A DNA stretch of 64,000 nucleotides from Paenibacillus sp. SZ31 (GTDB taxonomy: Bacteria; Bacillota; Bacilli; Paenibacillales; Paenibacillaceae). The stretch lies in NCBI RefSeq assembly GCF_012912005.1, contig NZ_JABBEA010000012.1, positions 62,001-126,000 on the forward strand, read 5' to 3'. The position numbers were made by a program, and so were the translations under genes. This document shows, one piece after another, positions 32,196 to 41,677 of the stretch (its first letter is position 1; every line of letters starts with the position of its first letter). A model generated the notes under the pieces. That model was given only the letters and a program-made list of their open reading frames with translations. It did not search any database and had not been told where the DNA came from.

Positions 32196-32268
32196 TTTGG
32201 GAAAAAGGAAAAGGACAGGCCAAAGAACCGGCATGCCAAGTAGCACGCTGTATTCTAAGGCTCTGTCC
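32196..32268 (-). terminator. terminator of the glycine riboswitch expression platform
   Basis: On the reverse strand GGACAG-A-GCC (from 32268), which overlaps the 3-prime side of the second aptamer P1, can pair with GGC-CTGTCC (ending at 32213). T-rich sequence follows (TTTTCCTTTTT). Glycine binding would hold the P1 strand in the aptamer and prevent the terminator, switching the operon on. Confidence 0.75.
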
Positions 32269-32480
32269 CTTGTACCTGAGAGTTACCCCGCCGCATTAGT
32301 GCAGCAGGTTTCCCCTTGGGTGATCATAACGCCCGCACAGGGCGAATAGATGCTCTCCAGAGTTGCGTCCCGTAAAAGTCCTTTTGCCTGAGAGATTCAC
32401 CCCCGCTTATCGGTGGTTTACTCCTTCGGCGTTACCTCATGAACATCCCGAATCGGGTGTCACGGGTAATCTCTCCCTTT
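32261..32480 (-). promoter_or_regulatory. tandem glycine riboswitch
   Basis: Two aptamers in series on the reverse strand. The first starts GGGAGAG (32477) and carries GCCGAAGGAG and CTCTCAGGCAAAAGGAC with closing ACGGGAC. The second starts CTCTGGAGAG (about 32362) and carries ACCCAAGGGG and CTCTCAGGTACAAGGGACAGAG. These are the conserved cores of gcvT-type glycine riboswitches, placed upstream of gcvT as expected. Confidence 0.97.
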
Positions 32481-32530
32481 ACATTCATCCGCGGGTATAA
32501 CATAGTCCAACAAACACATTTACTCCTCTC

Positions 32531-39261: not shown

Positions 39262-41265
39262 CTATTCTTCAGGCGGTAATTCGATCTGTAGGCCTTCCAC
39301 ATGTTTGCGTCCCATCAACTTACGCTTCTTTCGATTTTCCTTTGTTTCTAGCACAATTTCCAAGTCATAATCGTCACCTGGATAAAGCTCATTGGCAGAT
39401 ATATGAAGAGTCAGGCGTTTCTTATGGATTTTGACTTTGCGTCCCCGGAGCATGACCCCGATATTTCCACGGCTATCCTCCACATCACAGACGATACCCG
39501 ACTGATTGAGATAGGCTGCATATACCCGATCCCCTTTGCGAAAATTTTTGGCAGGAGCAGGGGGATCTGACTCTCTTGGTGTTGTCTTTTGGTGGAGACC
39601 GATTGAATCTTTTGGTTGCTTCCACTTCTCCCACTTGGACAACTCTGCTGGGCCGTCTGATACTGTAACGGAACGATCAGGCGCCAGGACCGGAGTTTCC
39701 AAAGGAGATGACGTGAACCCTAAAGTACGATCTCTCGAAATACTTTGATCGGACAGGGACTTGGAGCGCGCGATAATTCGCTGTGGCATGCCCAGCTTCA
39801 ATGCAATGGAATAGGCGTAACTTTCACCAGCTTCTCCGATACGCAATCGATACAGCGGCTGGAGAGAAACGGTGTCAAATTCCATACGGGCATTTTCGAA
39901 TCCTGGCGTGGCAGCTGCAAAATGTTTGATTTCACCAAAATGCGTTGTCGCCACAACGGTTGCTCCGCGGCTATGAAGTTCCTCCAGCATGGCGATGGAC
40001 AGTCCGACGCCTTCACCGGGATCTGTACCGGAAGCCATCTCATCAATGAGCACCAGCGTCGATGGATTGGCCTGTTCCAGTATGCCAATCATATTGCGAA
40101 TATGTGCGGAAAATGTACTGAGCGCTTGTTCCAGACTCTGCCCGTCACCGATATCAACCGCTACTTCGTTATAAACAGCCATCTCGCCACCTTCCACTAC
40201 CGGAATAAGCAAACCGGATTGCATCATCAGGGTTAGCAAACCTAGCGTTTTGAGTGCGACCGTTTTACCACCGGTATTCGGGCCAGTAATAATGAGCGAC
40301 GAATACGTTCTGCCGATTGCAAAATCAAGTGGAACCATGGAAGAACCCATGAATGGATGACGTGCACGTTGAAGGCTGATGTGGCCTTGCGTATTGACTC
40401 GAACGGTACGTCCATCCATGGTGGCCGCATATTTGGCTTTGGCAAACAGGAAATCCAGCACACCTACCGTTTCGGTGTTCAGGGCGATTTCACGGCTATA
40501 CGATTCGGTTAGGGAGGTTAAATCACCGAGAATTTTCATCTCCTCTCGGGACTCCTCGGCTTGTAGAGCAGCCAATTCCATCTGCAGACTTACTAATTCA
40601 ACGGGTTCAATATACACGGTTTGCCCGCTCCCCGATTCATCCAGCACACTGCCTTTCACCTGTTTACGGAACTCTTTCTTAATGGGAAGAACCGTTCTTC
40701 CTCCGCGTTGACTGATGACATGTTCCTGCATAATGGAGCGATGTTTGCTCACCAGAGAATCAAGCTTTCGTTTCATACGCTCCTCATTCACGGTCATTTT
40801 TTTACGAATTCGAATCAGTTCCTTGCTCGCCTGATCCTGAATGCGTCCACTATGGATGCAACGCTCGATCTCACTCAGCAAAGGTTCGATTAGAATCATG
40901 GATGCTGCATAACGACTGACGGTGGGAGCGGCCCCGGATTTGCCCTCCATGTATTTCATGAGTTGTGCGCAGCTCCGCAGGAATTGAGCGAGATGACTGA
41001 AGTCGCGTTCACTGAATAGATAACCGGTGACGAGCAGATCCATAATGGTCTCCATTCCATCCAGTGAAGGGAGGGGGATGCTGGCGCCAAAACGAATCAA
41101 CGCAGCGGCTTCCGCTGTTTCTTCCAGGCGAATCTGGATCAGGTGAGCATCTACCATCGGTTTTAGTTCTCTGGCATAACGTTTGCCCAGATATGACAGG
41201 GCGCAGTCTGCAACGTTTTTTTGAATTTGTGGATAGCCCAAACTGTTTAAAGTGTTTTCATTCAT
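39262..41265 (-). CDS. MutS2/RqcU-family ATPase lacking the Smr nuclease domain
   Basis: A 667-residue MutS2-like protein: N-terminal clamp and core region (LNSLGYPQIQKNVADCALSYLGKRYA...), ATPase with Walker A GPNTGGKT (about 328-335), LIDEMASGTDPGEG Walker B, THFGEIKHFAA and a GESYAYSIA signature, then a KOW-like small domain (about 574-620). It ends where full-length MutS2 (~785 residues) begins its C-terminal Smr endonuclease domain, which is absent. B. subtilis MutS2/RqcU senses collided ribosomes and can split them; this paralogue keeps the ATPase and ribosome-binding-type parts, so ribosome rescue without nuclease activity is my inference. Start ATG 41263-41265 follows AAGGAGAG; the open frame above it (to 41355) runs into a terminator hairpin. 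The leader holds a promoter, short ORF and two terminators. Confidence 0.85.
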   Translation of the reverse strand: MNENTLNSLGYPQIQKNVADCALSYLGKRYARELKPMVDAHLIQIRLEETAEAAALIRFGASIPLPSLDGMETIMDLLVTGYLFSERDFSHLAQFLRSCAQLMKYMEGKSGAAPTVSRYAASMILIEPLLSEIERCIHSGRIQDQASKELIRIRKKMTVNEERMKRKLDSLVSKHRSIMQEHVISQRGGRTVLPIKKEFRKQVKGSVLDESGSGQTVYIEPVELVSLQMELAALQAEESREEMKILGDLTSLTESYSREIALNTETVGVLDFLFAKAKYAATMDGRTVRVNTQGHISLQRARHPFMGSSMVPLDFAIGRTYSSLIITGPNTGGKTVALKTLGLLTLMMQSGLLIPVVEGGEMAVYNEVAVDIGDGQSLEQALSTFSAHIRNMIGILEQANPSTLVLIDEMASGTDPGEGVGLSIAMLEELHSRGATVVATTHFGEIKHFAAATPGFENARMEFDTVSLQPLYRLRIGEAGESYAYSIALKLGMPQRIIARSKSLSDQSISRDRTLGFTSSPLETPVLAPDRSVTVSDGPAELSKWEKWKQPKDSIGLHQKTTPRESDPPAPAKNFRKGDRVYAAYLNQSGIVCDVEDSRGNIGVMLRGRKVKIHKKRLTLHISANELYPGDDYDLEIVLETKENRKKRKLMGRKHVEGLQIELPPEE

Positions 41266-41334
41266 GCGTAATCTCTCCTTGGATTCGAATTGGCATTTCA
41301 GTTGATGCGCTAAAACATATTCCTGGAAAACGCA

Positions 41335-41371
41335 AAAAGGGCGGAGAATGAACAAACGTCATTCTCCGCCC
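41335..41371 (-). terminator. second (proximal) terminator in the mutS2-like leader
   Basis: Reverse strand: GGGCGGAGAATGA (41371-41359) pairs perfectly with TCATTCTCCGCCC (41351-41339) around a 7-base loop, followed by TTTTT. It lies about 75 bases before the gene start and points towards it. Confidence 0.85.
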
Positions 41372-41411
41372 TAAACGTATGGGAAAGCAAAGTCCACTAA
41401 AGGTCTATATT

Positions 41412-41440
41412 AAAAAAATCCGCGCTGAACACAGCGCGGA
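41412..41440 (-). terminator. first (distal) terminator in the mutS2-like leader
   Basis: Reverse strand: TCCGCGCTG (41440-41432) pairs with CAGCGCGGA (41427-41419) around TGTT, followed by seven T residues. An outer GGTCTAT/ATAGACC pairing (41448-41442 with 41408-41402) surrounds it. Confidence 0.88.
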
Positions 41441-41482
41441 AATAGACCCGGACAATGACAATCCCGGAGGCGATTTATGATA

Positions 41483-41600
41483 TCCGCTGTTCTTAACTAA
41501 GTACAGGGATCTGGCGCATCATGAAATACACGTATGCCATAACGGCACAAGCGCAATGAAAGGCCAAACTCCTGAATATGAAACTTGGTTAGTTAAGAAC
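41483..41600 (-). promoter_or_regulatory. long-range stem and branched structure in the mutS2-like leader (attenuator)
   Basis: Reverse strand: GTTCTTAACTAA (41600-41589) pairs perfectly with TTAGTTAAGAAC (41500-41489). Inside are CAGGAGTTTGG with CCAGATCCCTG, GCGC with GCGC and a TGCC/GGCA hairpin. GAACAGCGGA (41492-41483) can instead pair with TCCGC and TGTTC of the first terminator (41440-41436 and 41431-41427). Four bases (41492-41489) are shared, so the 12-bp stem and this antiterminator compete. Confidence 0.65.
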
Positions 41601-41612
41601 ATTCACCGACAT
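41589..41612 (-). CDS. 7-codon leader peptide MSVNVLN
   Basis: ATG at 41612-41610, ten bases downstream of AAGGAG (41627-41622), opens an ORF of seven sense codons ending with TAA at 41591-41589. It begins about 30 bases after the predicted transcription start of the reverse promoter. Its last four triplets, GTT CTT AAC TAA, are exactly the left arm of the 12-bp leader stem, so a ribosome paused there would open that stem. The strength of the ribosome binding site (as good as that of the downstream gene) argues that it is translated. It is too short for a protein function; a regulatory leader peptide sensing ribosome stalling is the likely role. Confidence 0.65.
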   Translation of the reverse strand: MSVNVLN

Positions 41613-41647
41613 TAAAAATCTCTCCTTTGATTGAGGAATATGCAACC

Positions 41648-41677
41648 AATATAAACTGGAAATTGGTTTGAAGTCAA
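41648..41677 (-). promoter_or_regulatory. promoter of the mutS2-like leader transcript
   Basis: Reverse strand: TTGACT (41677-41672), 18-base spacer, TATATT (41653-41648). Start of transcription expected near 41641, giving a leader of about 375 bases before the MutS2-like start. Confidence 0.7.

Follow-up and report, generated by a model that had tools for sequence, protein, structure and literature searches.

How is a gene for a MutS2-type ATPase controlled in Paenibacillus sp. SZ31, when it is preceded by a very short open reading frame, a long-range stem, and two terminators in a row? The locus lies on the minus strand of the window, the whole stretch of 64,000 nucleotides analyzed here, which carries on the same strand, at 32261–32488, tandem glycine riboswitch aptamers (Rfam RF00504). 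According to the original prediction, a promoter, a strong Shine–Dalgarno (SD) sequence, the reading frame MSVNVLN, a 12-bp stem, terminator 1 (T1), and terminator 2 (T2) precede a MutS2-type gene, and all of these are found in the minus-strand sequence where it had placed them (Table 1). The region contains five terminator-like sites, against 0.6 expected. The number of promoter-like sites is close to the chance expectation, and a −10-like box is found at a comparable position in relatives. Folding of the window leader with RNAfold gives a probability of 0.96 for the pairing of the left and right arms and of 0.86 for T1. Judging from the sequence and its relatives, the element is very probably a ribosome-mediated transcription attenuator, with an SMR-less MutS2 paralogue as its main product.

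Table 1. Features of the leader and of the gene it precedes, in window coordinates
Feature	Position	Strand	Remark
Promoter TTGACT-18-TATATT	41648–41677	minus	Read in the sequence; start site expected at ~41641
SD sequence AAAGGAGAG of the leader ORF, with spacer	41613–41628	minus	Conserved in alignment A1
Leader ORF ATGTCGGTGAATGTTCTTAACTAA, MSVNVLN, 7 codons	41589–41612	minus	Class consensus MxxxVLN*
Left arm GTTCTTAACTAA of the anti-antiterminator stem, leader codons 5–8 (GTT CTT AAC TAA)	41589–41600	minus	
Small hairpin within the loop, possible RNA polymerase pause hairpin	41533–41549	minus	Covarying helix in A1/A4
Position of the TTNTTT-like (NusG-type) pause motif	41524–41532	minus	Degenerate in the window (TGTATTT)
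Right arm TTAGTTAAGAAC of the stem	41489–41500	minus	Perfect complement of left arm GTTCTTAACTAA, 12 bp
Antiterminator 5′ strand AGAACAGCGGA	41483–41493	minus	Pairs better with its own T1 than with foreign T1s
GGTCTAT, 5′ strand of the T1-enclosing helix	41442–41448	minus	By eye, in the window and several relatives
T1	41412–41440	minus	Stem 41440–41419, then T run
T1 5′ arm and loop, antiterminator partner	41427–41440	minus	
ATAGACC, 3′ strand of the T1-enclosing helix	41402–41408	minus	
T2	41334–41372	minus	Stem 41372–41338, then T run
Regulated gene, start 41265; 667-aa MutS2 paralogue	39262–41265	minus	Core/ATPase and KOW-like barrel, without SMR

Leader DNA is matched in 72 of 75 genomes of the genus, with the same paralogue downstream to about 54% protein identity; over all comparisons, the element recurs 5′ of this gene down to about 40% identity. 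A short right-arm motif is present in 98 of 396 genomes of the family. A covariance model built from 31 divergent leaders (R1) matches 341 of these 396 genomes, in 17 of 19 genera and with at most three matches per genome. All 13 genomes that R1 missed and that encode the paralogue have a diverged copy of the leader when read by eye, mostly MxxxVLN with GTT CTG AAC TGA; in L380 the frame is shifted. Leader and paralogue are both missing from seven genomes, three in the genus without a leader match (G017, G023, and G039) and four elsewhere in the family in which no leader was detected (G087, G109, G135, and G137), and canonical MutS2 is the only form in each of them. In one further genome (G006, locus L054), the leader is retained and the adjoining paralogue is gone.

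R1 also hits 55 of 300 genomes drawn evenly from the class, and 30 of these 55 belong to other families. For the two-arm pattern GTTCTTAACTAA-N62-92-GTTAAGAACA, GTDB genomes yield at least 118 matches, against about one expected by our own calculation with equal base frequencies. These matches include Bacillus, Neobacillus, Mesobacillus, Rossellomorea, Halobacillus, Pontibacillus, Priestia, and Brevibacillus, as well as Petroclostridium, Clostridium sp. OS1-26, and Acidaminobacter. Outside Bacilli the element is uncommon: a wider model (R2), which doubles as a specificity control, matches only 20 of 398 genomes of the phylum. Viral contigs gave no leader match and plasmids gave a single one, on a Paenibacillus plasmid and 5′ of the same paralogue. 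By sequence comparison, which excludes chance, the leader is a real conserved element, kept in most of the Paenibacillus family, in many other Bacilli, and in some Clostridia.

The typical leader consists of seven codons, M-x-x-x-V-L-N-stop, with variable positions 2–4. Automatic reading assigns seven codons and a VLN end to 81 of 109 leaders, and to seven more with the second of two ATGs. Since the two-arm pattern fixes the arms, VLN is not provable from the pattern alone; the start codon four codons 5′ of the arm is free in it. The short reading frame is conserved across relatives, as the original prediction would have it, with its own SD sequence and a fixed position 5′ of the gene. All three stop codons are used. 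The Leu codon is CTT or CTG, and CTC in L437, and its changes are mirrored in the right arm: GTTCTGAACT on the left faces AGTTCAGAAC on the right in L430, where CTG is matched by CAG; GTTCTCAA faces TTGAGAAC in L437, where CTC is matched by GAG; and TCTGAA faces TTCAGA in L228, again with CTG matched by CAG. This mirroring points to selection on both the stem pairing and the peptide. A group of leaders of GNAT genes uses another frame on the same arm sequence, in which a TTG start overlaps the left arm and the peptide is MFLT(K/Y/Q)-stop. Together with the freedom of codons 2–4, this frame blurs the stalling signal, and we counted it against the attenuator reading. MFLT(K/Y/Q) leaders were seen at L136, L139, L184, L198, and L200, with compensatory stem changes at L139 and L200.

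Across the compared leaders, the leader codons pair with the antiterminator strand to form an anti-antiterminator. In alignment A4 (96 divergent leaders), which was fitted to the structure and whose counts are therefore biased towards it, 88.7% of cells pair, against 34–48% when the partners are slid by 1–3 columns; both sides have changed in 225 cells, against 79.5 in shuffles (0 of 500 shuffles as high), and the long helix is 96.7% paired. Covariation in the stem, which the original prediction had put forward as its own check, is present as compensatory changes (for example in L139, L200, L251, L430, and L437). They are few in the 12-bp core because its nine core pairs vary little, and the rare changes there mostly preserve pairing. 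RNAalifold on A1 recovered only 10 core pairs and gave no covariation credit, since the stem is nearly invariant within the family, and the wider set A4 was needed. Of 31 divergent leaders, 21 have an exact TTNTTT that follows the small hairpin in register. Anywhere between the arms, the motif occurs in 22 of 31 loci against 13.8 expected, and in view of this modest enrichment the in-register count alone was used.

GAACAGCGGA can also form the predicted 5+5 pairing with the T1 5′ arm, at an RNAduplex energy of −11.4 kcal/mol. Across lineages, the sequence from the right arm onward pairs with the 5′ portion of the T1 that belongs to it, and the letters differ by lineage: in Bacillaceae, for instance, CATAGC faces GCTATG, and in Paenibacillus GGAT faces ATCC. 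Among 46 dissimilar representatives, pairing with the own T1 has a mean of −9.1 kcal/mol, against −7.5 kcal/mol for swapped T1s (p = 2e-6). Antiterminator and T1 are thus mutually exclusive by complementarity across lineages; the equilibrium fold alone prefers T1. With the leader blocked, RNAfold freed the right arm and left T1 in place (P 0.86), the antiterminator reaching only 0.11–0.21. Given this persistence of T1 at equilibrium, kinetic, co-transcriptional capture must be assumed, on which attenuators usually rely.

Termination at T1 would release a structured RNA of about 230 nt, which could be a separate small RNA acting in trans, the alternative that accompanied the original prediction. 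We regard this as highly improbable, and it is not favored by the comparison: the element stays directly 5′ of the same genes, on the same strand, across Bacillota, the complementarity of the right arm follows each T1, and a second terminator precedes the gene. By automatic count, in which some of the hairpins are doubtful, 86 of 100 loci have this second terminator, with a wide variety of stems. The absence of an obvious antiterminator for T2, noted from the start, is borne out by a by-eye search, which found none; only certain groups show complementarity between the right arm and the T2 apex. At many loci, including the window, the T2 apex reads TGAAC...GTTCA or TGACG...GTTCA across many genera, while the base of the stem is free. 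The helix that would enclose T1 has 7 bp in the window and could form only in readthrough RNA. Helices of this kind can be made out by eye in several lineages; together with the antiterminator, they would form a pseudoknot.

These comparisons support the leader ORF, the stem and its competition with T1, and the conservation of T2. In the attenuator that we propose, ribosomes in unstressed cells would complete the seven-codon leader and depart. The last four leader codons would then pair with the right arm, so that T1 forms and transcription ends. A ribosome held on the leader would cover the left arm and leave the right arm (AGAACAGCGGA) free to catch the emerging 5′ arm of T1, and RNA polymerase would continue. 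We infer that stalling is the trigger, with ribosome-targeting antibiotics probably as the usual inducer, and that the SMR-less paralogue would act on stalled ribosomes, in ribosome rescue.

The paralogue matches the NCBIfam model mutS2 (TIGR01069) with 578 bits, only over model positions 1–513 of 790, while a canonical, SMR-bearing MutS2 of 798 aa in the same genome spans the whole model. The gene had been described as a MutS2/RqcU paralogue. It is indeed of the MutS2 type; it is not RqcU itself, being a member of an SMR-less clade in a genome that also has canonical MutS2. In a tree with canonical MutS2 from the same or related genomes, the leader-linked proteins and those of L403 and L404 form one clade (support 100) apart from the canonical proteins. 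No SMR domain or motif was found in the window protein or in the other proteins of the clade, most of which end in the conserved tail LYPEDYDxDIVFESKENRKKRK. The MutS2 core and its ATPase with the Walker A motif GPNTGGKT are present. AlphaFold predicts this core and a small five-stranded barrel at 578–622 (mean pLDDT 85), a region reached by the alignment to 9a5o, a MutS2 integrative model (to model residue 630), and showing a weak KOW sequence match. The best structure matches are MutS2 proteins, including the B. subtilis MutS2–disome complex 7qv3 (Z 43, rmsd 2.5, 498 residues). B. subtilis MutS2 is brought to collisions by its SMR and KOW domains and splits ribosomes with its ATPase; loss of the protein leads to sensitivity to chloramphenicol, tetracycline, and erythromycin (PMC10897456). 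The paralogue shares with B. subtilis MutS2/RqcU the core and ATPase domains (~36–38% identity) and probably a KOW-like domain, and differs in its separate clade and in the short conserved tail that replaces SMR.

The MutS family includes DNA repair proteins, and current annotations of genes for the paralogue read DNA mismatch repair protein MutS or endonuclease MutS2. This would fit a real element whose downstream protein serves DNA repair or recombination rather than ribosomes. We consider such a role improbable, since the leader anatomy couples the gene to translation, the co-regulated gene classes are ribosome- or drug-related, and the protein has a MutS2 core and a putative KOW-like domain but no MutS I/II domains. 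A second SMR-less MutS2 type (L403 and L404, in genomes G261 and G457) has a leader MSVVGSK-stop with a GTG start, ~300–400 nt 5′ of the gene and with its own repeats and terminator. Its branch, shared with Acidaminobacter L264, is basal within the SMR-less clade.

The type of mechanism is already known. In ermK of B. licheniformis, a drug-stalled leader likewise controls transcription attenuation, and the leader has two terminators; it is longer and of different sequence, and the target is a methyltransferase. The vmlR leader of B. subtilis shares the anatomy of a uORF inside an anti-antiterminator hairpin and a terminator opposed to an antiterminator, and it precedes a ribosome-acting ATPase, as the MutS2 paralogue is proposed to be (PMC9226507). 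The vmlR leader also has a small hairpin followed by a TTNTTT pause site, a possible counterpart of the in-register motif in 21 of the 31 leaders. It has a three-codon uORF (MIN) and one terminator with an SD-sequestering hairpin (PMC9226507), whereas the element described here has a seven-codon MxxxVLN leader, a possible pause hairpin inside the stem, tandem terminators, and an SMR-less MutS2 target. Very short conserved uORFs also lie 5′ of the ribosomal-protection ABC-F genes cplR, vmlR2, and lsaA; they encode MR[I/M], MK[L/Q], and MAGN, and none is MxxxVLN (PMC10201436). In Listeria, hflXr (rli80) combines an antibiotic-type attenuator with an inducible splitting-factor paralogue, the housekeeping copy being elsewhere, and an inducible SMR-less MutS2 would be analogous to HflXr. 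The hflXr leader has 14 aa with an RLR motif and the target is a GTPase (PMC6310831); here, the leader is of the VLN kind, the target is a MutS-type ATPase, and the occurrence spans many genera.

An Rfam 15 search of the window, and of the leader at low threshold, gave no family for the element at the gathering threshold, only unrelated families below it. A full-text literature search on MutS2 with attenuation, leader peptides, uORFs, or Paenibacillus, with scarce coverage of subscription journals and preprints, found no description of a MutS2-family attenuator, in line with the original prediction. The RNA family, the peptide, its breadth, and its main target thus appear undescribed. If the proposed reading is true, a large share of Bacilli would possess an inducible antibiotic response tied to ribosome rescue by MutS-type ATPases, and a function would be suggested for a widespread MutS2 clade annotated as DNA repair protein or endonuclease.

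Of 80 pattern loci (our own count), 65 precede the MutS2 paralogue, four a BpsA-like gene, and two other genes; nine are unassigned for their short flank. Genes 3′ of the leader also encode GNAT acetyltransferases, BpsA_C-domain proteins (PF01861), an rRNA-methyltransferase-like protein, and, by motif only (Pfam silent, NCBIfam weak), a phosphotransferase-like protein. In one Clostridia-side genome, the single one of its family in the comparison, the gene encodes an ABC-F protein, whose partial sequence scores 377.7 bits against a cut-off of 380 for a ribosomal-protection-like model. The predicted tie to MutS2 thus holds for the main target, and the leader is also common to several other genes. 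Targets of the resistance and translation type suggest that the inducing signal may be drugs or stress on translation. Scarcity of charged tRNA for Leu or Asn, with stalling at codons 6–7, would agree with the conserved Leu and Asn codons at the leader end; such amino-acid attenuation is hardly credible, however, with a single codon of each, no Asn in the GNAT-group leader, and targets that are not Leu or Asn biosynthesis or transport genes. The leader might sense a non-antibiotic cue (slow termination, collisions, or general translation stress), read at the VLN-stop end. The stop position and VLN end, kept through synonymous codons and all three stops, would fit this, as would a main target related to MutS2, which acts on collided ribosomes (PMC10897456); resistance-type genes (GNAT, ABC-F) under the same leader, and a related MIKGVLK leader before an ABC exporter, argue against it and make it rather unlikely.

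For the preferred attenuator, a bolder form is put forward tentatively. MxxxVLN-stop might be a new nascent-peptide arrest signal, and one RNA family might sense ribosome stress broadly and run a rescue and resistance regulon led by an inducible MutS2 without SMR, which would split or clear ribosomes stalled by drugs, with T2 as a second checkpoint. Conservation of the leader peptide gives a handle for seeking such an arrest motif, and the unrelated genes (GNAT, BpsA-like, ABC-F) are testable jointly as one possible ribosome-stress regulon. The MIKGVLK-stop leader, which is conserved and has a similar stem, lies 5′ of the ABC exporter at L433, L434, L438, and L439, in four genomes that belong to a single genus outside Bacilli. 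BpsA_C-domain proteins are known from branched polyamine synthesis in thermophiles; at L071 and the other BpsA-like loci, in Paenibacillaceae and Brevibacillus, such proteins stand under a ribosome-type attenuator.
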